Origin: Clostridia bacterium
GTDB lineage: Bacteria > Bacillota > Clostridia > Christensenellales > Borkfalkiaceae
DNA length: 49,625 bases
Direction: 5' to 3'
NCBI GenBank assembly: GCA_017467265.1
Contig: JAFTSO010000029.1
Location: forward strand, 1 to 49,625
Positions within the stretch are counted from its first letter, which is position 1; every line of letters starts with the position of its first letter. A program made the position numbers and the translations under genes. The notes beneath the pieces are model-generated. The model was not told the origin of the DNA. It did not search any database and worked only from the letters and a program-made list of their open reading frames with translations. This document shows, one piece after another, positions 6,198-17,388 of this stretch.

Positions 6198-6226
6198 TTG
6201 ACACTAGATAAAATATCTAGTATAAT
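6198..6226 (+). promoter_or_regulatory. perfect sigma-A promoter with palindromic spacer (candidate XRE operator)
   Basis: TTGACA (6198-6203), exactly 17 nt, TATAAT (6221-6226): both boxes are consensus. The whole spacer is an inverted repeat, CTAGATA-AAA-TATCTAG, so a dimeric repressor bound there would block RNA polymerase. It reads away from the XRE gene and toward the TasA-like genes. Confidence 0.85.
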
Positions 6227-6236
6227 ATATGCAAAA

Positions 6237-6356
6237 ATGCGTGTAAGTATGCAACAAAATTTGCGTTTGCGCTGTTATAATATAAAAGGGGATAAAGCGC
6301 GGCTGTCGTGTAAGGTGACGAAAAAAGAAGTCGCAGATGTAAGTTTTTTGCATTAA
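6237..6356 (+). CDS. possible 39-residue basic small protein with almost no leader
   Basis: ATG 6237 lies 10 nt after the consensus -10 box, so the transcript would have only about four untranslated bases. The frame encodes 39 residues, strongly basic (QQNLRLRCYNIKGDKARLSC) with two Cys, ending at TAA 6354-6356. No Shine-Dalgarno is present. It could be a leaderless small protein or simply untranslated leader; a second ATG lies at 6249. No family recognised. Confidence 0.3.
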   Translation: MRVSMQQNLRLRCYNIKGDKARLSCKVTKKEVADVSFLH

Positions 6357-6394
6357 AAGGGAATAAGAAACAGATTTTTTCTAAAATGGGGAAA

Positions 6395-6454
6395 AACGCC
6401 TTTTTAGTTAAATTTTTTTTGGTAAGAAATTAATTTTTTTTGTAAAAAGGCGTT
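6395..6454. repeat. 12-bp inverted repeat with T-rich loop
   Basis: AACGCCTTTTTA (6395-6406) and its exact complement TAAAAAGGCGTT (6443-6454) flank 36 nt holding two near-identical T-runs (AATTTTTTTTGG and AATTTTTTTTGT). The transcript from 6198 would fold here. It lies between two promoters and may end the first transcript or modulate it. Confidence 0.55.
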
Positions 6455-6461
6455 CAAATAC

Positions 6462-6490
6462 TTGTATTCAAAAAGTGATTATGCTATAAT
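6462..6490 (+). promoter_or_regulatory. second sigma-A promoter before the TasA-like genes
   Basis: TTGTAT (6462-6467), 17-nt spacer, TATAAT (6485-6490). The expected start is near 6497, immediately ahead of the attenuator-like hairpins. Confidence 0.75.
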
Positions 6491-6520
6491 GTTATACGCA
6501 AAAAAAATGTAAAAATGGGC

Positions 6521-6573
6521 AACAACCCCTAGGGGTTGTTTGTTGTCGCAGAACAACAAACAAAATTTTTTTT
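6521..6573 (+). promoter_or_regulatory. attenuator-like overlapping hairpins with terminator
   Basis: Hairpin 1 is the perfect palindrome AACAACCCCTAGGGGTTGTT (6521-6540). Hairpin 2 pairs TTGTTTGTTGT (6536-6546) with ACAACAAACAA (6553-6563) and is followed by eight T (6566-6573), a standard intrinsic terminator. The hairpins share 6536-6540, so both cannot form fully at once. Placed between promoter and gene, this fits transcription attenuation; alternatively it ends a short RNA of about 75 nt. Confidence 0.6.
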
Positions 6574-6684
6574 GTGAAGCACGATTAAAAAATTTGTCGA
6601 AAAAAGTCGGCGATACATATTACGCCGCTTTGATAAATATCAATAAAGGAACAAAATTTATTAGACCATTAGGAGGATATAAAA

Positions 6685-8805
6685 ATGGCTAAGAAAAACG
6701 TAGCAAAACGCAACTTTATTGCGAGCATTTTGGCGACGACTGTTAGCGCGTCGATGCTCGTAGGCTCGACGTTTGCGTGGTTCACCGATTCGGCATCCAG
6801 TAGCAATAACGTCATCAAAACGGGTACGTTGGATCTGGGTATGTACTGGACGGAAACGTTTGGTGGTGCGTGGACGAACGCGGAAGGGGACAACGCTCCC
6901 GCGATCTACGGCAACGAAAAATGGGAACCTGGCTACACCGACGTGAAATACGTGAAGATCGCGAACGAAGGTTCTCTTTCCTTCAAGTACGAGATGAACG
7001 TATTGCCTAACGGCGAAGTAGGTGCACTTGCAGAAGTCATCGACGTATATTTGATGCAAGACGTTGCATCGGCTGTGACGAAAAAAGACGTGGCAGACGC
7101 AACGCCCGACGGCACGTTCCAAGATCTCATCGACGGCGAGATTACGCTTGCAGGCACGCTGCAGGCAGGTGAGAACTGTGTATCCGCGATCGTGTTGAAA
7201 ATGCAGGAGACCGCAGGCAACGAATATCAGGACGAATCGATCGGCGACAGCTTCGAACTGCGCGTACTCGCAACGCAGTATACGTATGAAGAAGACAGCT
7301 TTGGCGATGATTACGATGGCGGCGCAACGTTCGGTACATATATTGAACTCAACGACGGCGAAGATTTGTTGACAGCAATGGCGTCTGCAAAAGAGAATAT
7401 GCCCCTTACCATCAAGCTGAACAGCGACGTTGAATGGGCAACGGAAGGTCATCACGGCGAAAACGATATTACGCGCGCGTCCGTAATAACGATTGAAGGA
7501 AACGGACATACGCTCACGGCAACGGGTTCGGGTGTCACGCCTTTGGGTGATATCGAAGCGCCGATGATCTTGAAAAACCTTACGGTAGTTGACAACTCGG
7601 TTTCCTACAATGAAGGCGCTTGGGAACTTACCTATCTTGAAATGGGTAGCCCGAGACTTGTATGTGAAAACGTCACGTTTGCAGACGAAATTCAGATCGG
7701 CACGAACGCAACGTTTACGAACTGCTCGTTTGAAAGCAACGAAGAGAGCGTATATGCCGTTTGGGTAGAAGGCGGCTCTGCTAAGTTTACGAACTGCACG
7801 TTCACGGGTTACAGAGGTCTGAAAATGCACGAGGCATACGGCAGCGAAATCAGCTCTGTCATCGTAAAAGATTGTACGTTCAATAAACTGACGAAGAAAC
7901 CCGGTATCGCTATCGGTACGCTCAATGCAGACACTACCGTTTCTGTAAAGGACAGCAAATTCTTCGGCTGTCAGGCAGGCGATCAAGGTCTGTACATTTA
8001 CGAAACGGATACGGACGTGACCACGTTCAACTTCATCAACGAGAACAATCAAGTCTACGGTGGTAGCCTTACCGTAACGGAGAATACGACGACGGAGGAG
8101 CTTTCTGATGCTCTTGCGAATGGGTATTACGTTGCTTTGGATAAGGACGTGGAAATGGAAGCGGAAACTACTGCTCCTTACGGTAATAAGTACGGCGTTG
8201 CATTGACTGGCGGCGTATTGGATGGCAACGGCAAAGAGCTTGATATCGAATGCTACGGCGACGATTACGGCATTATGACGACGGGCGGCACCGTTAAAAA
8301 CCTTACGATCAAGAACGCTTGCCGTGCAATTATGATTATGAATGCAGAGCAGGACGTTATTCTCAATAACGTCAATATCGGCGGCGACGGCGTTCTGTAC
8401 ACCATCAATACGGGTGAAGAAGGTTCTACGCCTATTAAATTGATTGTAACAAACTCCACGCTTGCTGGTTGGACGAGTTTCGCTGCAAACGTAGAAAGTG
8501 CGTCGTTTACGAACGTTACGTTTGAACAGGGTACGTATTACAACAACATTTACGGGCGCGTGATAAAACCTTACGTAAGCACGACCTTCACCGATTGTTC
8601 GTTCATCGAACATATGAACCTTGACCTTTCGGCTCTTGAGCTGGGACAGAAGATTACGATGAAAAACTGTACGGTAAACGGTCAGGCGGTAACTGCGAGC
8701 GTATTCACAATTCCTACGACGGACGCAGAATATGACACGGAGCTTTTCACGGTGGATCTTCCTTCTTGGGCTAGCTCGATTACCGACTGCATAATTTTTG
8801 CTTGA
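6685..8805 (+). CDS. TasA-like secreted protein with C-terminal beta-helix
   Basis: 706 residues. A SipW-type signal sequence (1-31: MAKKNVAKRNFIA, hydrophobic core, then STFAWFTDSAS) is followed by a TasA/camelysin-like module (about 34-200) with TGTLDLGMYW, YVKIANEGSLSF and the GNEYQ...SFELRVLATQ end strand. TasA of Bacillus has the same order: GTWAAFND then TGTLDL-type. Residues about 215-690 are a right-handed beta-helix of short N/T-rich turns (TFTNCSFE, KFTNCTFTG, VIVKDCTF). Role inferred: an extracellular fibre or matrix subunit carrying a display domain, exported and cut by the signal peptidase encoded at 14450. AGGAGG lies 8 nt before ATG. Its first 200 residues are about 82% identical to the next gene by hand alignment. 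No cell-wall anchor motif. Confidence 0.8.
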   Translation: MAKKNVAKRNFIASILATTVSASMLVGSTFAWFTDSASSSNNVIKTGTLDLGMYWTETFGGAWTNAEGDNAPAIYGNEKWEPGYTDVKYVKIANEGSLSFKYEMNVLPNGEVGALAEVIDVYLMQDVASAVTKKDVADATPDGTFQDLIDGEITLAGTLQAGENCVSAIVLKMQETAGNEYQDESIGDSFELRVLATQYTYEEDSFGDDYDGGATFGTYIELNDGEDLLTAMASAKENMPLTIKLNSDVEWATEGHHGENDITRASVITIEGNGHTLTATGSGVTPLGDIEAPMILKNLTVVDNSVSYNEGAWELTYLEMGSPRLVCENVTFADEIQIGTNATFTNCSFESNEESVYAVWVEGGSAKFTNCTFTGYRGLKMHEAYGSEISSVIVKDCTFNKLTKKPGIAIGTLNADTTVSVKDSKFFGCQAGDQGLYIYETDTDVTTFNFINENNQVYGGSLTVTENTTTEELSDALANGYYVALDKDVEMEAETTAPYGNKYGVALTGGVLDGNGKELDIECYGDDYGIMTTGGTVKNLTIKNACRAIMIMNAEQDVILNNVNIGGDGVLYTINTGEEGSTPIKLIVTNSTLAGWTSFAANVESASFTNVTFEQGTYYNNIYGRVIKPYVSTTFTDCSFIEHMNLDLSALELGQKITMKNCTVNGQAVTASVFTIPTTDAEYDTELFTVDLPSWASSITDCIIFA

Positions 8806-8850
8806 TAACGGAAATCAAAAATTATATTATATATTAGGAGAAACAAAACA

Positions 8851-10548
8851 ATGGCAAAAAAATCAACGGCAAAACGCAATTTCATTGCAAGTGTCTTGGC
8901 AATGTCGCTCAGCGCGTCTATGCTCGTAGGCACGACGTTTGCGTGGTTTACGGACTCCGCGTCCAGCAAGAACAACGTCATTAAGACGGGTACGCTGGAC
9001 CTCGGTATGTACTGGACGGATACCTTTGGTGGTACGTGGATGGACGTAGAGGCGGATAACGCTCCTGCTATCTACGACAACGAAAACTGGGAACCTGGCT
9101 ACACCGACGTTAAGTACGTAAAGATCGCAAACGAAGGCAGCCTTTCTTTCCAGTACGAGCTTAACGTATTGCCTAACGGCGAAGTTGGGAAGCTGGCGGA
9201 AGTGATCGACGTATATCTCGTGGCGAACGCGACGAAAGCGGTGACGAAGAAAGACGTAGCAGATGCAACGCCCGACGGCACGTTCCAAGATCTCATCGAC
9301 GGCGTCATCACGTTGGACGGCACGCTGCTTGCAGGTGAAGAGGCGGTATCGGCAATCGTATTGCAGATGCGTGACAACGCAGGCAACGAATACCAGAACC
9401 AGTCGATCGGCGACAGCTTTGAGCTTCGCGTACTCGCAACGCAGTACACGTACGAAGAAGACAGCTTTGATAAGGACTATGACGCAGGCGCGATTATTCC
9501 CCCCAAGGCAGTTGTAAAGACGTTTGACAAAGAAGAGCTCACGGCGATCAACACCGCAGGTTTCTACGGCTATCAGGCAGGCGAAGTAGTGCTGGAAACG
9601 GCATACAGCTTTACGACGACGGACACCTTCGATGAGGCACAGGCAGAAACGTATAAATACTGGCACGTGGACTATGTGGTTTCCTTTGATAAGGACGTAG
9701 CGGCAAACACGGTAGGTCTTGCTGGCTATTACGAATCTTGGTGCTCTGCAAATACGAACAACCAGTGGGTTGCGATTCCCGTTGATCAGGACGTAGCAGC
9801 AAATACGCCCGTACGTCTGTTGGAAACGGCTGGCGGTAGTATGAACTATGAAGAACTTTGCCTTTTGGTGCAGGAATTCCAATGCGGCGCGTTCAATCTG
9901 TCTCCGAACAACTACGGCACGACGATGACGGTGGAGCTTCGTATGTACGAAACGAAATCCGCAGACATCACCGACAACAATACGACGAACGAAGAAACGG
10001 GTGAGTATATCGTTGTGAACTCGACGAGCTATACGTTCGCCGAACCCGAAGCGCCCGTGGCGAGCATCGAAACGGCATCGACGGATGAATTGGCTGCAAT
10101 CAACGCAACGAAACCGACAATCTACAACTCGACCGAAATAATCGAGATAGAAACGGCGTACACCTTCAAAGCGACGGAAACGGCTGCAGAAGCAGCGGTT
10201 AGCCCCTATGCAGATTGGATTGCAGATTACTACGTGACGGTTGATAAGAATATTGCGGCAGGTACGCTTGGTCTTGCAGGTCAGTACGACGCGTGGAGCA
10301 CCGATTGGGTAGCATTCTACGCACCTGAAACGCAGGCGAACGTAGCGACGCCCTTGCTCGGTTCGGTGTCGAACGGTATCACGTATGCAGAGCTTATCGA
10401 GATGTTGGATGGCGGTGATTTCCAATGCGGTGCGTTCGATAAAGACGGTGCTTGCAGTGGTACGACGATGACGGTTGAACTTCGTTTGACGAACCCGAAC
10501 GATGCAACCGATTACAAAGTAATCAGCTCTACGAGCTATACGTTCTAA
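8851..10548 (+). CDS. TasA-like secreted protein with two C-terminal repeats
   Basis: 565 residues. The signal sequence (MAKKSTAKRNFIA ... TTFAWFTDSAS) and TasA-like module to about residue 200 nearly copy the preceding gene, but the C-terminus is unrelated. It holds two tandem repeats of about 160 residues (about 215-390 and 400-565), each with an EL.AIN start, an ET.Y.F strand, a D..V..DK...A.T.GLAG segment, FQCGAF, and a GTTMTVELR.....STSYTF end. The repeats look like all-beta adhesion or carbohydrate-binding modules, not identified further. It is 45 nt downstream of the first gene with its own AGGAG site, so presumably cotranscribed. Inferred role: a second variant subunit of the same extracellular structure. 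A good example of one conserved export/assembly module joined to a different display module. Confidence 0.8.
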   Translation: MAKKSTAKRNFIASVLAMSLSASMLVGTTFAWFTDSASSKNNVIKTGTLDLGMYWTDTFGGTWMDVEADNAPAIYDNENWEPGYTDVKYVKIANEGSLSFQYELNVLPNGEVGKLAEVIDVYLVANATKAVTKKDVADATPDGTFQDLIDGVITLDGTLLAGEEAVSAIVLQMRDNAGNEYQNQSIGDSFELRVLATQYTYEEDSFDKDYDAGAIIPPKAVVKTFDKEELTAINTAGFYGYQAGEVVLETAYSFTTTDTFDEAQAETYKYWHVDYVVSFDKDVAANTVGLAGYYESWCSANTNNQWVAIPVDQDVAANTPVRLLETAGGSMNYEELCLLVQEFQCGAFNLSPNNYGTTMTVELRMYETKSADITDNNTTNEETGEYIVVNSTSYTFAEPEAPVASIETASTDELAAINATKPTIYNSTEIIEIETAYTFKATETAAEAAVSPYADWIADYYVTVDKNIAAGTLGLAGQYDAWSTDWVAFYAPETQANVATPLLGSVSNGITYAELIEMLDGGDFQCGAFDKDGACSGTTMTVELRLTNPNDATDYKVISSTSYTF

Positions 10549-10569
10549 TTAGAATTACATAATTTTGGT

Positions 10570-10595
10570 GTTCCGCGCGTGCAAACGCGCGGAAC
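10570..10595 (+). terminator. GC-rich hairpin after the second TasA-like gene
   Basis: GTTCCGCGCG (10570-10579) pairs perfectly with CGCGCGGAAC (10586-10595) around a 6-nt loop. No T-run follows, so it may stabilise or process the upstream mRNA rather than terminate. Confidence 0.5.
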
Positions 10596-10659
10596 GATAG
10601 CCAAAGTACACTACCGTAGAAAAAATGGCTGAAAAGCGCGGTGGTGTACTTTGGCTATC
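10596..10659. repeat. 20-bp inverted repeat inside the operon
   Basis: GATAGCCAAAGTACACTACC (10596-10615) pairs with GGTGGTGTACTTTGGCTATC (10640-10659) with a single G-U pair around a 24-nt loop. It abuts the previous hairpin without a gap. The pair of hairpins separates the abundant-subunit genes from the peptide/Hint/peptidase genes and may set their expression ratio. Confidence 0.75.
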
Positions 10660-10717
10660 TAAAAAAGCAAAAGGGGAAAGTGTGAAATTTTTGTTTCAGG
10701 CAGGAGTTTGTAAAAAA

Positions 10718-10828
10718 ATGAAACATTATGAGAAAGTAGAGATCACCGTGCTTTTAATACAAGACAGCGACATTGTTCGGACTAGTCCCGGGGTTGATGT
10801 GCAGGATTCAAGTAATGGGTGGTGGTAA
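10718..10828 (+). CDS. 36-residue peptide of the small KYEKP...GW-type family
   Basis: ATG 10718 follows AGGAG (10702-10706). The product is MKHYEKVEITVLLIQDSDIV followed by RTSPGVDVQDSSNGWW. Its layout (basic/aromatic start, a hydrophobic strand, an acidic D-x-V turn, a TS-rich stretch and a terminal Trp pair) recalls small uncharacterised peptides I know from Firmicutes genomes. A sister with the same layout is at 17124. The TAA at 10826-10828 is one base from the ATG of the Hint gene, so translation is probably coupled. It has no signal peptide. A longer frame from 10625 is open but starts inside a hairpin. Function unknown; a leader, adaptor or peptide-signal role is possible. Confidence 0.65.
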   Translation: MKHYEKVEITVLLIQDSDIVRTSPGVDVQDSSNGWW

Positions 10829-10829
10829 A

Positions 10830-13800
10830 ATGAAGATTTCAAGACAGATTAAACGATTTTTATTATCAGCTCTGTGTGCGATTTTTTGTGCACTGATCGG
10901 TTTTGCGTTTGCTGCGATTACTCCGACAACGGCAAGAGCAGAAACCGCGACAACGTCAAATAAGGGTATGTATTTTGGTGGCGCAAGTATCCGTCTTTCC
11001 GCAGGAACAGTCGACGGAGTAGATACGAACGGTATCCGTTTCCGCCTGTGCATAGACCTTGACAGCGAAGATGCGGAAGTGGTGTTGAACGAGAAAACGT
11101 ATTCCCAAGAGCAATTTACTGATCCGACTAACGAGAATTTTATTAAGACGGGTATGGTGATTATGCCCTCCGATTTAATTAAGGAGGGGGAAAACTTAAT
11201 TGATGGATATACAAACGGAAATGCAAAAGCGGTGACGGTTAATAACGACACTGAAGGTTGGGCTTGGCAAAAAGTGTCCGAGGGTACGAAGTGGTATTTG
11301 CAAGCGGTTGCTTATTTGTATAATATCCCAAACACAGACTATGGACGTGACCGTTTGTTTACTGTTCGCGGATATTATGTTGACGGAGAAACATTTTATT
11401 CTGAAGTAGCAGAACGTAGTATATCGTGGGTTGCGGTAAGTGCCTTATATGCCCACGATCAAGGAACAAGTACCGTTGTTTTTTCCGATGACGATCTTAA
11501 GAACATTAAGAGTTATTTGACCAATCGCGTAAAATCTTTTGAAAACGTTAACGAGTATCTTTACCGCGTAGGGAATCAAAATCAGGTAACGGTAGAACAG
11601 CTCTTTTTTGACAAATTTGGAACGGAAGTGCCTATTGTTCCTGAAAGTGTGACGTTTGATCCCCCTGACGGTTCGGGTGCTGGTTGTACTGTTACGGACA
11701 ATAAAATTCTGCAGTTTTCAGGAACAGGTCCTATCAAGGTAACGGTAAAAGATAAGTATAGCAATAATGCTGAAAGTAATAATGTTTACACCTTGAACTT
11801 AGAAGTGGTTGATGCGAAAAATATAACGACGGCAGAGAGTGCAACGGGAAACAACGTTGTGTTGCTCAACGACGTTAGCGGTACGTTTACCGTCAGCAAC
11901 GGCTATACGTTCTACGGCAACGGCTTTACGGTCAAGTTGCCCACAACGTCTGTACAAAACGTAGGGAATGGCTTTACGGGCTATATTAGCGTTGGTGCAT
12001 CACAGGATGACGGCCTCGCAAATGGGGGGCATTTGGATAACGTCCGCATAGAAGGACCAGTTTATCCCGAAATGTATATTTATCGCGACCAAGCCAAAAT
12101 CACCGATTCGAGCGATCCTGATTACGGCGATGGTTACAATATGCGCTATTTCAAAAACAGCGTGATAGTGTACGGCGGTAATTGTACGATTAGCAACTGC
12201 TATATTTCTGGTTCGCGTACGGCGCTTTGCTTACGTGGCGGCAACAACGTTTTGGTTGAAAATACTACGCTTGCAGGCGGTGCGTATGCCAATATGCAAA
12301 TCTGCGCTGGCTCTAACGTCACTCTTCGAAATTTGACGACAGTACAGGTCGACGTTAGCGATTCCTACGGAAAAGGTAAAACGGCGCACGGTTTGGGTAT
12401 TGCGGTCGATTCTAGCGTTGTCGATCTTTATATCGAGGGCGAACTGAATCAATACAACTGGCTCTGCCAAGCTCAATGGAACAGTATTGTGCCGAGTACG
12501 TATCAAAGTCAGTTTCCGGAATTTTTTACCAACAATACCTTTAGTGCATATTGGCATTATTTGGACGGGGAGACAGCTCCTTACGTGAATATGGCATTTG
12601 TGTATGCTTGCAACTGGGATACGAGCAAGATTCACGACAACCGTACTACAGTGGATTATGGAACGTGTAATGCAACGATTGCAACGGTTGCTGGCGGTAT
12701 CTATTCCAAAGTGAATACGGTGGGCGGCAACGCAATAACGGAGGACAATCTGGCTGAACCGAGCTATTCGGCAAGTGGATTTAATCCCGTTGCGCCTACG
12801 TTTACGTTTGACAATACTGCAAATAACGATGATGATGACGAGAACGATACGGCAGACACTTATTGTGTGTATGACGAAAGTAGCGGTACGTTAAAGATCG
12901 GTCTTACAAGTGATAGCAAAGTTCTTGACTTGTCGGGCGTATCTATCACAAAGAGTGGTACACCTCTTACGCATACTGTGTTCTTGAATGGTACGCAGAT
13001 CAGTGGCAATTCCTTGACAATCAATACGGCAGACGGGACAAAACAAACGTTAACGTTTAAGGTGACGACTAACGATGCTGGTTATGATAAAGACGGCAAT
13101 CCGATCGAGGGCAGTATCGACTATACGTGGACGATCACGGTAGAAGTGGCTACGCTTGGTTATCCTGCGCCCGTATGGAATATGAGTGGCGATTATCAGT
13201 TTGATACGAGTAATTGCGTATATGCGTATTATCAAACGTCTCAAGGTTATGGTGAAGCCGTTCCCATTTACGAGGGCATAAAGATCAATTATTATAACAA
13301 GAGCGGCACGTTGGTAAATCTGGATCTTTCGGATACGACGACGTTGCCTACGGGTAGTGGTAATAGCAACGCAAACGCATTCACCTATACGCTTGCGGAC
13401 GGCTCTACGTTGACAATGAAATTCTCCTCGGGCTGGAAGAGCGGCGCAACAACGCACCAGTTTACAAACTATAATAATAAAGTTTATATCTATCCACAGT
13501 CCTTGGATAACGATAACTACGTGCGCGCAAAGACGACGAATCAAGATTTTGACGTAAAGATCACGTATACGTTTACCGATCCCAATGGTCAATCCACGGA
13601 TACGCAAACAATGCAGTGGTATAACGCCAAGGCAAGCAACGGCTCGGTGTCGACGGTACAATGGAAGACGTTTGATAGTACAAACGGAAAGGAGCCTTCT
13701 TGTATTATAGAAGGCACGATGATTACGCTTGCGGACGGTACGCAAAAAGCAGTAGAAGATTTGCAAGTAGGCGATATGATCTTGGCGTTTAACCATGTTA

Positions 13801-14405
13801 GTGGTCAATATGAGGCGATGCCTTTGATTTTTAATACGCATGCAGATGAAAACGAGGCAACGGAAAGAGACGTTTTGTATTTGCAGTTCGAAAACGGTAA
13901 AGAATTGGGGATCGTATCGTCGCACGGGTTGTTTGATATGACGTTAATGCAGTACGTGTATATAACGCCTGAGAATTATCAGGAGTATATCGGGCACGAG
14001 TTCTATACGTTGAATGAAACAACGAAATTGAGCGAAAATGTTCGTCTGATTAGCGGTGAAATCGTTAAGAAAGTGGTTCGTATTTTCTGCCCCGTTACCT
14101 ATTTCCATATGAATAGCTTTGCGAACGGATTCTTGAACACACCGAATATTCCTGGGGATATTACGGGGCTTGTGAATTATTTTGCATACGATGGTGATTT
14201 GAAGTATAACGAAGCACAAATGCAGGCAGATATTGAAAAATATGGTCTGTATACGTATGAGGATTTCAAAGATTATATTTCGGAAGAGGCTTATAATTCT
14301 TCGCCTGCGGTTTATTTGAAGGTCGCGGTGGGGAAAGGAATGATCACTTTTGAGGAAATCTTGGATGTTATTTATTATTTGTTGGATGGCTCTTTGATTT
14401 CATAA
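10830..14405 (+). CDS. large secreted beta-helix protein with C-terminal Hint domain
   Basis: 1191 residues from ATG 10830; an upstream TTG at 10773 is open but lacks a site and would spoil the signal peptide. Signal peptide 1-37 (ends TTARA). Residues 45-230 form a beta-rich domain starting MYFGGASIRLS. About 335-545 is a right-handed beta-helix (CTISNCYIS, VLVENTTLAGG, VTLRNLTTVQV). An acidic linker (NDDDDENDTAD) and Ig-like strands follow. Residues 958 to about 1090 are a Hint (Hedgehog/intein) domain: Cys958 in SCIIEGTMITLADGTQ, VEDLQVGDMI, and His1032 in GIVSSHGLFD. The tail ends YLKVAVGKGMITFEEILDVI. There is no C-terminal His-Asn-nucleophile, so it is Hedgehog-like, not a splicing intein. 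Predicted: self-cleavage before Cys958 with release or covalent attachment of the beta-helix part. Similar tails recur in Clostridia surface proteins by recall; biochemistry unknown. Confidence 0.75.
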   Translation: MKISRQIKRFLLSALCAIFCALIGFAFAAITPTTARAETATTSNKGMYFGGASIRLSAGTVDGVDTNGIRFRLCIDLDSEDAEVVLNEKTYSQEQFTDPTNENFIKTGMVIMPSDLIKEGENLIDGYTNGNAKAVTVNNDTEGWAWQKVSEGTKWYLQAVAYLYNIPNTDYGRDRLFTVRGYYVDGETFYSEVAERSISWVAVSALYAHDQGTSTVVFSDDDLKNIKSYLTNRVKSFENVNEYLYRVGNQNQVTVEQLFFDKFGTEVPIVPESVTFDPPDGSGAGCTVTDNKILQFSGTGPIKVTVKDKYSNNAESNNVYTLNLEVVDAKNITTAESATGNNVVLLNDVSGTFTVSNGYTFYGNGFTVKLPTTSVQNVGNGFTGYISVGASQDDGLANGGHLDNVRIEGPVYPEMYIYRDQAKITDSSDPDYGDGYNMRYFKNSVIVYGGNCTISNCYISGSRTALCLRGGNNVLVENTTLAGGAYANMQICAGSNVTLRNLTTVQVDVSDSYGKGKTAHGLGIAVDSSVVDLYIEGELNQYNWLCQAQWNSIVPSTYQSQFPEFFTNNTFSAYWHYLDGETAPYVNMAFVYACNWDTSKIHDNRTTVDYGTCNATIATVAGGIYSKVNTVGGNAITEDNLAEPSYSASGFNPVAPTFTFDNTANNDDDDENDTADTYCVYDESSGTLKIGLTSDSKVLDLSGVSITKSGTPLTHTVFLNGTQISGNSLTINTADGTKQTLTFKVTTNDAGYDKDGNPIEGSIDYTWTITVEVATLGYPAPVWNMSGDYQFDTSNCVYAYYQTSQGYGEAVPIYEGIKINYYNKSGTLVNLDLSDTTTLPTGSGNSNANAFTYTLADGSTLTMKFSSGWKSGATTHQFTNYNNKVYIYPQSLDNDNYVRAKTTNQDFDVKITYTFTDPNGQSTDTQTMQWYNAKASNGSVSTVQWKTFDSTNGKEPSCIIEGTMITLADGTQKAVEDLQVGDMILAFNHVSGQYEAMPLIFNTHADENEATERDVLYLQFENGKELGIVSSHGLFDMTLMQYVYITPENYQEYIGHEFYTLNETTKLSENVRLISGEIVKKVVRIFCPVTYFHMNSFANGFLNTPNIPGDITGLVNYFAYDGDLKYNEAQMQADIEKYGLYTYEDFKDYISEEAYNSSPAVYLKVAVGKGMITFEEILDVIYYLLDGSLIS

Positions 14406-14449
14406 GGAATTAACCACCCAACCACACAAAAAACTAGGAGGAAAACGCA

Positions 14450-15316
14450 ATGTCGGAATTGAATACGGAAAACGGCAAGGATTTGCCTAGAGCAGAGACT
14501 TCGCCCGAAACGGTAAAAACGCCGACGACGGCGGATTCGACAACGGAATCAACTGTGCAAACGACAGTAGAAGAAACGTCCGAAACGGCGGTCGAAACGG
14601 AAGAAAAAACTCCCGTTTACAAGAAAATTATCAATATTTTTTCGTACGTGTTGCTTGCGTTTTCACTCCTGACGGTGATTTTTACCGTTTTCGCCTCGTC
14701 TACGTTTAACAAGAAAAAGGAAGTTTTCGGCGTGAAAATGTACGTCGTACTTTCCGACTCGATGAAAGCGACGGATTTTGCGGCAGGCGATTTGATTTTC
14801 ATTAAAGGAGTCGATCCCGAATCTTTGCAGGAAGGGGACGTGATCGCGTTCATTTCGCAAAACAAAGAGAGCTACGGCGAGACGGTCACGCACAAAATCC
14901 GTGTAAAGACGGTGGACGACAAGGGCAAACCTGGGTTCATTACGTATGGTACGACGACGGGCACGGACGACGCTGTAATTGTCACGTACGAGTGGATCGA
15001 GGGCAAATACGTAGGCAGAGTGCCTGCGGCAGGACGGTTTTTCAACTTTTTGAAAACTCCGAAAGGGTATATCACGTTCGTGCTGTTGCCGTTTGCATTT
15101 TTGATTGTGGTGCAGGGCTGGAATTGCGTGGTGGCATACAGAGAGTACCGCGGCGAAAAGACGGACGAACTGAAAACGGAACGTGAAAAATTGCAAAAAG
15201 AAAAGGAAGAAAACCAACGCATGTTGGAAGAAATGCGTTTGCTCCGCGAAGAATTGAAAAAGCAAAAGGAGCAAGGCGCGTGCAAGGAAGAAACAGAAGG
15301 CGACGACGCACCATAA
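14450..15316 (+). CDS. type I signal peptidase, Ser-His (SipW/ER) type
   Basis: 288 residues. The catalytic Ser104 lies in VLSDSM and His148 in ETVTHKI, replacing the Lys of ordinary bacterial enzymes, which defines the ER/archaeal S26B class to which SipW belongs. Other class marks are AGDLIFI, EGDVIAF and GTDDAVI. Topology: a Thr/Glu-rich tail (1-55), transmembrane segment (about 61-83), extracellular catalytic part, second transmembrane segment (about 208-230) and a charged coiled coil (about 236-278, EREKLQKEKEENQ). Both cytosolic extensions are unusual for the family. SipW enzymes cut TasA-type precursors; four candidate substrates are encoded on either side. AGGAGG precedes ATG 14450. 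It follows the Hint gene by 44 nt. Confidence 0.9.
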   Translation: MSELNTENGKDLPRAETSPETVKTPTTADSTTESTVQTTVEETSETAVETEEKTPVYKKIINIFSYVLLAFSLLTVIFTVFASSTFNKKKEVFGVKMYVVLSDSMKATDFAAGDLIFIKGVDPESLQEGDVIAFISQNKESYGETVTHKIRVKTVDDKGKPGFITYGTTTGTDDAVIVTYEWIEGKYVGRVPAAGRFFNFLKTPKGYITFVLLPFAFLIVVQGWNCVVAYREYRGEKTDELKTEREKLQKEKEENQRMLEEMRLLREELKKQKEQGACKEETEGDDAP

Positions 15317-15352
15317 CGGCAAGCGACGGCGCACATAACAGGAGAAGATAAT

Positions 15353-15943
15353 ATGGCAAAGAAAAATGGTGCAATTTCCAATTTGATCATGAATATCGGG
15401 TTCGTTCTCGTGTTGTTATTCGAGTGTTTTTTGCTCACGATTTCCATCCCGAAACTCGTGAAAAAAAATGGGCAGGACAGTTCGGTGATCGTATCGGGCA
15501 ACGCAAACGTAGAGCTGAATTATTACGCCGCTAGCGGTGAATACGAAGAGCTGACGGACGGCGTATTGTTCGGGGGCGAGTGGGCACCCGACACGGCGCA
15601 GACCGTTTATTTGCAGATCAAAAACGACAGCGAATATCATATTCAATGTATGCTGACGTTATCGGCAGATATGGGCGAAATGGACGGTGCGTTCGAGTAC
15701 GCGGCGATCGAAGGCGCACAGGCAAACGGTACGTATCTCACGTGGAAGGATTTTGTCGCAACGCAAGGCGTGCGCGATTTGCACGACGGTATGAACGCAT
15801 TGAACGGGCAAGAATATCTGTACGTAGCGCCGAATTCTTCGGCGTATGTAGCTTTCGCGGTGCATATGCGTGAAGAAAGTGGCAACGAGTACCAAAACAA
15901 ATCGTTCGTAATCGACGTGATGTTGTTGGCTGCACAGGTGTGA
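15353..15943 (+). CDS. membrane-anchored TasA-like protein
   Basis: 196 residues. After MAKKNGAISN comes one long hydrophobic segment (about 10-35, NIGFVLVLLFECFLLTI) with no FAWFTD-type cleavage region, so it probably stays as an N-terminal anchor. The outside part (40-196) keeps the TasA-like frame: VYLQIKNDSEYHI matches YVKIANEGSLSF of the two large subunits, and MREESGNEYQNKSFVIDVML matches their GNEYQ...SFELRVL end. It may serve as the membrane base or assembly factor for the fibres, comparable to TapA by analogy only. It lies 36 nt after the signal peptidase with AGGAGA before ATG. Confidence 0.7.
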   Translation: MAKKNGAISNLIMNIGFVLVLLFECFLLTISIPKLVKKNGQDSSVIVSGNANVELNYYAASGEYEELTDGVLFGGEWAPDTAQTVYLQIKNDSEYHIQCMLTLSADMGEMDGAFEYAAIEGAQANGTYLTWKDFVATQGVRDLHDGMNALNGQEYLYVAPNSSAYVAFAVHMREESGNEYQNKSFVIDVMLLAAQV

Positions 15944-15958
15944 CGGTGAGGCTTTGTC

Positions 15959-16444
15959 GTGAGAAAAGAATATAAATATAAGAAAGGAAAATCGAGCGTA
16001 AAGACGTGGAAAAACACCTTTATTGCCGGCATTTTGAGTGCCGCTGTATGTGTGGGATTGCTCAGTTTCTCCACGTATGCGATGTTTACGGCGGACGTTT
16101 CCACGAAACCGTCCGTGGTAGCGACGGCGGATTATAAAATGTCGCTGGTGGTGGAAGGCGGTAGCGTGTCGATCGCGCACGAAGGTGAAAAGCTCCGCTA
16201 TGATCTGTCTGCTGGCACGTACGAAGTGACGTTGCAAGCCTCGGGCACGTCTTCGACGGGTTTTGCGATGTTTCAGCTGAACGGAATCTCTTATTACGGC
16301 GCGCAGCTTGCGCCGACGGAGCGTATGACGTTTACACTCACGTGCGAGGCGGAAACGGTATTCGAATACGATTATCAATGGGGACGTCACGGGAGAACGG
16401 AAAACGTCATTTCGGACGGCAACACTTTGACGGTGACAATATGA
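15959..16444 (+). CDS. small SipW-substrate-like secreted protein
   Basis: 161 residues from GTG 15959, with GGTGAG about 9 nt upstream; last gene of the operon, 15 nt after its neighbour. The basic start (MRKEYKYKKGKSS) leads to a hydrophobic segment and FSTYAMFTADVSTKPSVVA, the same cleavage-region pattern as STFAWFTDSAS in the large subunits. The remaining about 110 residues are beta-rich (YEVTLQASGTSSTGFAMFQL) with no recognised family. Inferred to be a minor subunit, cap or chaperone of the extracellular structure. A terminator follows at 16454. Confidence 0.65.
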   Translation: MRKEYKYKKGKSSVKTWKNTFIAGILSAAVCVGLLSFSTYAMFTADVSTKPSVVATADYKMSLVVEGGSVSIAHEGEKLRYDLSAGTYEVTLQASGTSSTGFAMFQLNGISYYGAQLAPTERMTFTLTCEAETVFEYDYQWGRHGRTENVISDGNTLTVTI

Positions 16445-16453
16445 TAGATAAAC

Positions 16454-16500
16454 AAAGCGAGATTGCAACGACGTTGTAGTCTCGCTTTAATGCTTTCTTT
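16454..16500 (+). terminator. terminator at the end of the TasA-like operon
   Basis: AAAGCGAGA (16454-16462) pairs with TCTCGCTTT (16480-16488), with a second inner stem TGCAAC/GTTGTA around GAC. T-rich sequence follows (CTTTCTTTTTT). Confidence 0.75.
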
Positions 16501-16735: not shown

Positions 16736-17047
16736 ATGAAATTTATGAAAAAGGCGTTGTTGGCATTGCTTGCGCTGTGTTCACTTTCCCTGATCGCGTG
16801 CGCCGAGAAGGGCAATAATAGCTCCGCTACATCGAGCGTGGAACAATCGTCGAGTGAACAAAGTGAAGAGAGAGAAGAAAGTGCAGAAAGCGCGGAGATA
16901 ACAGATAGCTCTGTTGTGGAAGAAAGTTCGTCCATAGAAAGCGAAGAGAACGTTGAGAGTGAAGAGAAGAGTGAATCTACGTCTTCTCTGGGTACGGGAA
17001 CGTTGGTAGGCGACGGTGTAGAGTTGCCCGATATTATATTACCGTAA
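16736..17047 (+). CDS. small Ser/Glu-rich lipoprotein
   Basis: 103 residues. A lipoprotein signal (KKALLALLALCSLSLIAC) places the lipid-modified Cys at residue 22. The mature part is a low-complexity Ser/Glu linker (VEESSSIESEENVESEEKSE) with no folded domain, ending GTLVGDGVELPDIILP. The last motif, GVELPD, recurs at the ends of the next two small genes. The protein is predicted to sit on the outer face of the membrane as a flexible tether presenting this short motif. AAGGATAG lies about 9 nt before ATG. The binding partner is unknown. Confidence 0.7.
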   Translation: MKFMKKALLALLALCSLSLIACAEKGNNSSATSSVEQSSSEQSEEREESAESAEITDSSVVEESSSIESEENVESEEKSESTSSLGTGTLVGDGVELPDIILP

Positions 17048-17123: not shown

Positions 17124-17231
17124 GTGAAAGAATACGTACCTATTAGATTAGAGATTGTGTGCATAGCCCAAGACATTGTCACGTTAAGCGGCGTGCAGTT
17201 GCCTGAAGACGAATTGGATTTCACATCTTAA
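17124..17231 (+). CDS. 35-residue peptide with GVQLPED end
   Basis: GTG 17124 follows AAGGAG by 7 nt. The product is MKEYVPIRLEIVCIAQDIVT followed by LSGVQLPEDELDFTS. It has the same plan as the 36-residue peptide at 10718: a charged/aromatic start, a hydrophobic beta-like stretch, a D-I-V turn, Ser/Thr, then the GV-x-L/V motif. No signal peptide. It is followed four bases later by the start of a lipoprotein gene that lacks its own ribosome site, suggesting coupled translation. Function unknown. Confidence 0.6.
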   Translation: MKEYVPIRLEIVCIAQDIVTLSGVQLPEDELDFTS

Positions 17232-17235
17232 TGCT

Positions 17236-17388
17236 ATGAAAAGGAAAGTAATATTTTTGTTAGCGGTTGTTTGTGCGGCGCTACTTGTTTGTGGGTGCAA
17301 ATCCAAAGGACAAACGAATTCGTCGCAGGAGAGTACAGGGAATAGCTCTTCACGTGTAGGTGTGGAATTGCCCGACGTAGAGATGTAA
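17236..17388 (+). CDS. 50-residue lipoprotein with GVELPD end
   Basis: A lipoprotein signal (KRKVIFLLAVVCAALLVCGC) puts the modified Cys at residue 21. Only about 30 mature residues follow, Ser/Gln/Asn-rich, ending SSSRVGVELPDVEM. This is a shorter version of the 16736 lipoprotein with the same terminal motif. No Shine-Dalgarno; it is probably translated by coupling to the peptide gene ending at 17231. Downstream comes the 1219-residue secreted protein after 42 nt. Confidence 0.65.
   Translation: MKRKVIFLLAVVCAALLVCGCKSKGQTNSSQESTGNSSSRVGVELPDVEM

Follow-up and report, generated by a model that had tools for sequence, protein, structure and literature searches.

The window analysed here, a 49,625-nucleotide contig (JAFTSO010000029.1) from a Clostridia bacterium of the family Borkfalkiaceae, carries at positions 6685-16444 an operon of seven genes in which proteins of the TasA/SipW kind stand beside a large display protein ending in a Hint domain. 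We give a probability of roughly one half to the reading that this is a surface-fibre operon whose display protein ends in an exchangeable autoprocessing cassette resembling the Hog part of Hedgehog proteins. The gene set announced by the first-pass annotation, which had been drawn from the bare sequence, was recovered in full: two large TasA-like proteins, a 36-residue peptide, the Hint protein, a signal peptidase, a membrane-held TasA-like protein and a small exported protein, all encoded on the plus strand (Table 1).

TasA-like subunits and their signal peptidase

The two large proteins, TasA-like 1 and TasA-like 2, both score above the curated thresholds of PF12389 (Pfam) and TIGR04088 (NCBIfam), with 30.8 and 25.1 bits, respectively, for TasA-like 2. 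The TIGR04088 score also places a SipW-type signal peptide at the head of each. Within an alignment of 12 clostridial TasA-like modules (A3) they are 82% identical to each other, and TasA-like 1 additionally matches the Beta_helix model (2.6e-11). The mature TasA-like part alone stays under the PF12389 cut-off (17.5 against 22.5 bits) and HMMER found no TasA chain in the PDB with it, for which reason whole profiles were compared. The reference alignment (A6) has 15 rows of camelysin/TasA proteins, taken from a survey of 199 phylum genomes of which 24 had a match, and its first row (L230; L and G numbers denote individual loci and genomes) matches the TasA chain 8aur at 4.9e-93. With hhalign, A3 and A6 aligned at 99.2% (E 2.3e-19, 155 columns), and still at 98.5% once the strand behind the signal had been removed, while 20 column shuffles reached at most 0.2%. 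The membrane-held TasA-like protein aligned at 97.8% with the other 11 modules of A3 and at 74% with A6.

The peptidase scores 71.0 bits against the TIGR02228 cut-off of 51.85, and its Ser104 and His148 are kept in nine of nine aligned sequences (A5). It does not reach the Bacillus-specific SipW equivalog NF046067 (74.9 versus 190 bits). In the host genome (1.39 Mb, 79% complete), the local SipW and the two TIGR04088 proteins were the only such matches found. No TapA match (TIGR04087) appeared among 10 proteins at E 0.1, and plasmids gave no TasA-like match at E 0.01. The prediction of TasA-like proteins served by a Ser-His signal peptidase has thus held, and the assignment of the locus to SipW/TasA-type operons is supported by these profile matches. 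The annotation had also named TasA-like modules that fail to match the TasA fold as a refuting condition; in the profile comparison that stood in for the predicted fold, the modules did match TasA.

The Hint cassette and its exchange

The first-pass annotation also had a secreted protein ending in a Hint domain, which the family profile bears out. The window's domain alone scores under the Pfam cut-off (26.9 versus 29.7 bits). A profile built from 32 of the 35 Hint loci in the family to which the window belongs (A1; three were missed by the motif search) had, with E values up to 1, matches to 20 sequences of the PDB. The best of these was a chain of about 150 residues named ADP-ribosyltransferase (9.6e-5), the matched part of which we take to be its intein-like domain, and further matches included the bacterial intein-like domain 2lwy (0.0014), Ataxin-1 (0.0024) and Hedgehog 1at0 (0.027).

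A search for the Hint cassette, meaning the domain together with the tail behind it, found 212 relatives and revealed a widespread C-terminal unit. The best 80 were retained, and 62 of them were aligned with the window (A2); among the 18 left out, some were missed by the motif search and others were removed by hand as similar-looking, the similarity being judged by eye. Cys1 and the block-B histidine are present in all 63 sequences. At the column of the intein-terminal asparagine, Asn occurs in 5/63 and Ser in 38/63. Conservation in the tail equals or exceeds that of the Hint domain (mean top-residue frequency 0.62 versus 0.53). Searches of Pfam, NCBIfam and the PDB reported no family covering the tail, and neither Pfam nor NCBIfam returned a model specific to the cassette. 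Pfam matches among the 63 members were to the Hedgehog-type Hint PF01079 (36), Hom_end_hint (19), Hint_2 (15), PT-HINT (9) and Intein_splicing (5). Since a C-terminal Hint domain is followed by a further conserved region, Hint and tail together are, as far as sequence can tell, a C-terminal cassette of the Hedgehog Hog build, unlike a splicing intein. With both a conserved C-terminal asparagine and a C-extein missing, splicing would not be expected. Phage (8 records) and plasmid (18 records) sequences gave only weak and partial Hint matches. The same cassette also closes a 1884-residue protein at L162 (5057-10708), whose N-terminus is that of a type IV prepilin (PF07963 above cut-off).

The Hint protein of the window is a mosaic, the body being nearest to L194 and the Hint domain and tail nearest to L124. 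Residues 790-939 share 90-100% identity with L194, and residues 970-1119 share 10-37% (residue ranges in the identity profiles are one lower than in the numbering of the 1191-residue protein), and L124 has the reverse pattern, low in the body and high in the Hint domain. At the DNA level, similarity to L194, L201 and L178 stops at 13690-13694, within 11 bases 5' of the codon for the catalytic cysteine at 13701. The cassette is, judging from these alignments, exchanged as a unit between proteins at this cysteine. An apparent swap at its own cutting point makes most sense if the cassette functions as a unit. The body is 89% identical to that of L194 in two segments, and at E 1e-10 its relatives were found in three of the 396 genomes of the order, its own included. 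This rarity, taken with the 89% identity, points to a transfer of the Hint gene, or of the operon, between lineages.

Partners of the Hint gene and rival readings

Two sets of Hint loci were surveyed, the best 80 of the 212 relatives and the 35 loci from the window's own family, along with 20 control regions taken from that family only. The counts of the two sets are not summed because the sets overlap (L124 is L227; L064 and L126; L076 and L151); some of the 80 also come from one genome. A model of AWFTD-type signal peptides, built from 22 seeds of SipW loci and the window and applied at a threshold of 14 bits, found such genes in the flanking DNA examined of six of the 80 best relatives and of none of the 20 controls. 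A seventh match at 12 bits, in L180, was rejected, since it is a common Sec-like signal that belongs to the Hint protein.

These cases are concentrated around one kind of protein body. Six of the 80 (L194, L202, L187, L201, L190 and L124) share the long body of the window protein, with at least 38% identity over about 900 residues. Flanking SipW-type genes accompany five of these six and one of the other 74 (Fisher 1.5e-6), and, when that one (L178, with a protein truncated at the end of its contig and 45 remaining body residues 87% identical to the window) is counted as kin, six of seven and none of 73 (Fisher 2.3e-8), kinship thresholds for both counts having been chosen after seeing the data. 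L201, the long body kin without a SipW-type gene, has its DNA end upstream. The weaker full-length kin L144 (33%), L188, L197 and L193 have no SipW-type genes. In L124, L190, L194 and L228, the Hint-ended protein itself starts with a signal of the SipW type followed by a TasA-like module, both closely similar to those of the window, so that in some species TasA-like module and Hint-ended protein are one molecule. SipW homologues lie in the same stretch as the Hint gene in L190, L194 and L202.

Owing to these fusions and to the SipW-type genes beside body kin, we regard the Hint protein as a real partner of the TasA/SipW system in a subset of relatives, insofar as gene content can establish it. 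The partnership that the first-pass annotation had suggested for the Hint gene stands for this subset. It does not extend to most carriers of the cassette, as 74 of the 80 best relatives are without an AWFTD-type gene and 75 without a SipW homologue in the flanking DNA examined. The annotation had also foreseen the case of Hint and TasA-like genes being unlinked in all relatives; fusions and flanking SipW-type genes link them in some. A general unlinkage of Hint and SipW would fit the majority of window-family loci and is ruled out by the fusions in other relatives.

Several observations count against this reading. No AWFTD-type gene occurs in the flanking DNA of the 35 window-family Hint loci, and a SipW homologue lies near the Hint gene in only 5/80 best relatives and 2/35 family loci (controls 0/20). 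Across the 151 genomes of the family, SipW is matched in 81, the Hint region in 37 and both in 18, and among these 18 the two share a contig only in G000, G046 and G057. For two of the fusions, in G377 (L124/L227) and G452 (L228), all SipW homologues found lie off the Hint contig. The signal of the window's Hint protein is Sec-like and not of the SipW type. As to the cassette, the threonine of the TxxH motif is present in 3/63 members of A2 only, and the tail stretch 1120-1149 retains 67% identity with L194, which leaves the break clean for the Hint domain and less so for the tail.

A further, W-type signal was noticed at the N-termini of Hint proteins. Its pattern, written after seeing the sequences, is present in 14 of 51 Hint proteins (seven of the 58 Hint genes were dropped, their start being uncertain), in 0/109 control N-termini, in 4/159 N-termini of SipW loci and in 12/142 of window-family Hint loci, the Hint proteins there included; TIGR04088 finds 3/51 Hint proteins. 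Nine loci (L125, L126, L134, L160, L166, L167, L168, L170 and L172) carry a gene of about 215-260 codons with the signal GF(S/A)xW directly 5' of a Hint gene with a like signal, and in L134 and L170 a SipW homologue lies downstream of the pair. These W-type proteins of about 230 residues were considered as TasA-like and are not counted as such, because their profile match is 0.4%.

The putative course of events may be outlined as follows. SipW would cut the signal peptides off TasA-like 1 and 2, which would assemble by donor-strand exchange as TasA does, and the base or nucleator of the fibre would be the membrane-held TasA-like protein. The Hint protein would be exported by Sec, and its Cys958 would perform an N-to-S acyl shift at the border of body and Hint domain. 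The conserved tail would then present a nucleophile that takes over the thioester, leaving the display protein with a covalent C-terminal adduct and releasing the Hint-tail part. As a tentative extension, the cassette may act in cis to couple TasA-type fibres or display proteins covalently to an acceptor, be it the cell's own envelope, a lipid or some surface outside; it would then need no separate enzyme for the kind of task that sortase performs in trans.

The best surviving alternative, which we consider doubtful, makes the cassette a sortase substitute that anchors giant surface proteins to the cell's own envelope in lineages that have lost sortase, here the display protein or the fibre. 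Sortase (PF04203) was indeed found in one of the 151 family genomes, and none was found in the window's own, 79%-complete genome. Among 386 genomes of the order, 123 have a sortase, 76 the cassette (E 1e-20) and two both (Fisher 5.6e-12 by genome); counted by family, this exclusion yields p 0.07 only, and shared ancestry may therefore explain it. As a general explanation it is weakened because the genomes with the closest Hint proteins possess sortases: they occur in five of ten further genomes, precisely those with the closest long bodies (L190, L194, L202, L187 and L201), and also in G377, the genome of L124. Moreover, some Hint proteins are apparently held N-terminally already, by a TasA-like or prepilin module, a lipobox or transmembrane helices.

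Such holding modules would suit another role for the cassette, that of a distal chemical harpoon in which fibre or surface proteins held at their N-terminus would present a reactive thioester to nucleophiles of the host, of mucus or of neighbouring cells. Relatives offer TasA-like modules (L124, L190, L194, L228), a prepilin module (L162) and a lipobox judged by eye (L128, L136, L156; the pattern flagged eight proteins and over-calls, only L128 and L156 of these looking right, and it missed L136). This role is unlikely, given that an exposed thioester would hydrolyse unless shielded and that the window's Hint protein shows no N-terminal holding module.

The Hint gene might also be a chance neighbour, a separate large surface protein that came to lie inside a SipW/TasA locus. 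Its mosaic structure, the scarcity of its body relatives in the order and the position of the cassette away from SipW at most loci examined would agree with this. The same body is nevertheless found beside or fused to TasA-like modules (L124, L190, L194, L202, L228) and beside SipW-type genes (L187 and, as a partial protein, L178); the fusions already strain this explanation, and we deem it quite unlikely. Highly improbable is a polymorphic toxin-like protein whose Hint domain frees a C-terminal effector: PT-HINT matches the nine A2 members weakly and, of the 10 listed among 18 weakly matching plasmid records from Streptomyces, several bear the annotation of a polymorphic toxin-type HINT protein, but conservation is higher in the tail than in the Hint domain, whereas the effectors of polymorphic toxins vary, and the gene that follows is SipW instead of an immunity gene.

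Operon layout and comparison with known systems

Table 1. Coordinates of the operon and its control elements in the window.
Feature	Position	Strand	Description
XRE-family regulator gene	6163-5963	-	Pfam HTH_3 47.7 bits; RstR-like but under cut-off
Sigma-70 promoter	6198-6226	+	TTGACA-17-TATAAT
TasA-like 1	6685-8805	+	706 aa; SipW-type signal, TasA-like module, beta-helix display region
TasA-like 2	8851-10548	+	565 aa; SipW-type signal, TasA-like module, two C-terminal repeats of about 160 aa (repeats by eye)
Two RNA hairpins	10570-10659	+	11-bp and about 22-bp stems
36-aa peptide gene	10718-10828	+	Stop one base ahead of the Hint gene ATG
Hint protein gene	10830-14405	+	1191 aa; Sec-like signal (by eye), N-domain of about 210 aa, beta-helix/Ig-like body, C-terminal Hint cassette
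Hint domain	13701-14147 (end approximate)	+	Cys958 codon 13701-13703
Conserved tail behind Hint	14148-14402	+	Adduct-recognition-like by position only
SipW-type signal peptidase	14450-15316	+	Ser104, His148; TIGR02228 above cut-off
Membrane-held TasA-like protein	15353-15943	+	N-terminal transmembrane segment; no SipW-type cut site (by eye)
Small exported protein	15959-16444	+	SipW-like signal
Intrinsic terminator	16454-16488	+	16-pair stem, 3-base loop; closes the operon

The predicted promoter agrees with the consensus at 12/12 positions and is the sole such site across the 11.6 kb scanned. Its 17-bp spacer, CTAGATAaaaTATCTAG, is a palindrome and an operator candidate, and the XRE protein is a candidate repressor of the operon, the regulation being read from this arrangement. 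The first-pass annotation had the XRE gene and the fibre genes running in one direction, with a palindromic operator candidate near the former and a terminator at the end. The terminator and the common direction of the seven operon genes were retrieved as described; the XRE gene is divergent and lies outside the left edge of the region it had delimited, and the palindrome exists, as the spacer of the operon's own promoter. The small exported protein has relatives in L099 (40%) and in L187, L194 and L202 (26-27%) by tblastn, and does not match TIGR04088.

The RNA of the gap 10549-10717, which holds the two hairpins, folds at -73.5 kcal/mol (z -9.99), and none of 200 shuffles was as stable. At gathering score, Rfam matched neither the hairpins nor anything else in the window. 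They are a possible processing or attenuation element and, placed between the TasA-like genes and the peptide, might set the ratio of subunits to display protein.

Peptides like that of 36 residues were found by eye 4-15 bp 5' of seven of the 58 Hint genes with their start present among the best 80 (L137, L138, L140, L144, L147, L150 and L171). As these seven loci have no SipW match in the flanking DNA examined, the peptide is associated with the large gene that follows it, whose product is exported by Sec. Peptides of this set have 35-48 residues, no signal peptide and in most cases an acidic/Trp end, and their genes lie 1-15 bp 5' of genes for large surface proteins exported by Sec. The window contains another (17124-17231, GTG start), which precedes a lipoprotein gene and a gene for a 1219-residue surface protein, and in L100 comparable sequence lies ahead of a surface gene without Hint that adjoins SipW/TasA-like genes. 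Two small lipoprotein-like genes 3' of the operon (16736-17047 and 17236-17388) have in common the C-terminal motif GVELPD(I/V), to which GVQLPED in the peptide at 17124 is similar.

Like the tapA-sipW-tasA operon of Bacillus subtilis, the locus has SipW, SipW-type signals and TasA-related subunits; relative to that operon, as far as the available part of the source describes it, the window lacks a TapA model match, its subunits carry beta-helix or repeat display regions, and the Hint protein and the peptide are extra (PMC9674648). The sipW-bsaABCRSD genes of Clostridium perfringens likewise combine SipW with a secreted subunit, which there forms filaments. Behind the first subunit gene, a predicted terminator with readthrough in Clostridium perfringens compares with the hairpins of the window. 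Control there is by a two-component system, and no Hint protein is mentioned in the sections consulted (PMC7395162).

Partial accounts of Hint proteins allow similar parallels. The Hog part of Hedgehog, a Hint domain (PF01079) with a sterol or adduct recognition region (SRR/ARR), likewise has a C-terminal Hint domain with an invariant Cys1 and His, a further conserved region and no C-extein; the window protein differs in being bacterial, and no kinship of its tail sequence with the SRR was found (PMC2362128). No Pfam match to the Hedge domain was obtained in the window proteins at E 0.1. Bacterial intein-like (BIL) domains A and B also reside in bacterial host proteins and keep the N-terminal reaction residues. 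Compared with BIL-A, the cassette has no His-Asn end (Asn 5/63), and compared with BIL-B, its Cys and His fit but its tail is fixed and conserved where the surroundings of BIL-B are hypervariable, according to the passages available (PMC7765530). C-terminal Hint proteins of Myxococcus, Photorhabdus and others, some of them secreted, can be likened to it by description only; they belong to other phyla, and the excerpted text describes no fibre context for them (PMC2362128).

No literature linking a Hint domain with SipW was found in a search that left most subscription papers uncovered, and among the matches listed for Hint domain with sortase, or with clostridial surface, none concerned such a system.

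If it reacts as proposed, the cassette would provide a new self-coupling tag, by which surface proteins are attached without a separate enzyme. A relative of it (L164, gene start uncertain) occurs in Pumilibacter muris CLA-AA-M08, presumably a cultured strain, in which case the cassette would be testable outside metagenomes. It would also offer an answer to how giant surface proteins are handled in gut Clostridia such as this family, where a sortase was found in one of 151 genomes. Should the cassette react as its anatomy suggests, Hog-type autoprocessing, a chemistry best known from animal signalling, would enter the biology of bacterial fibres.

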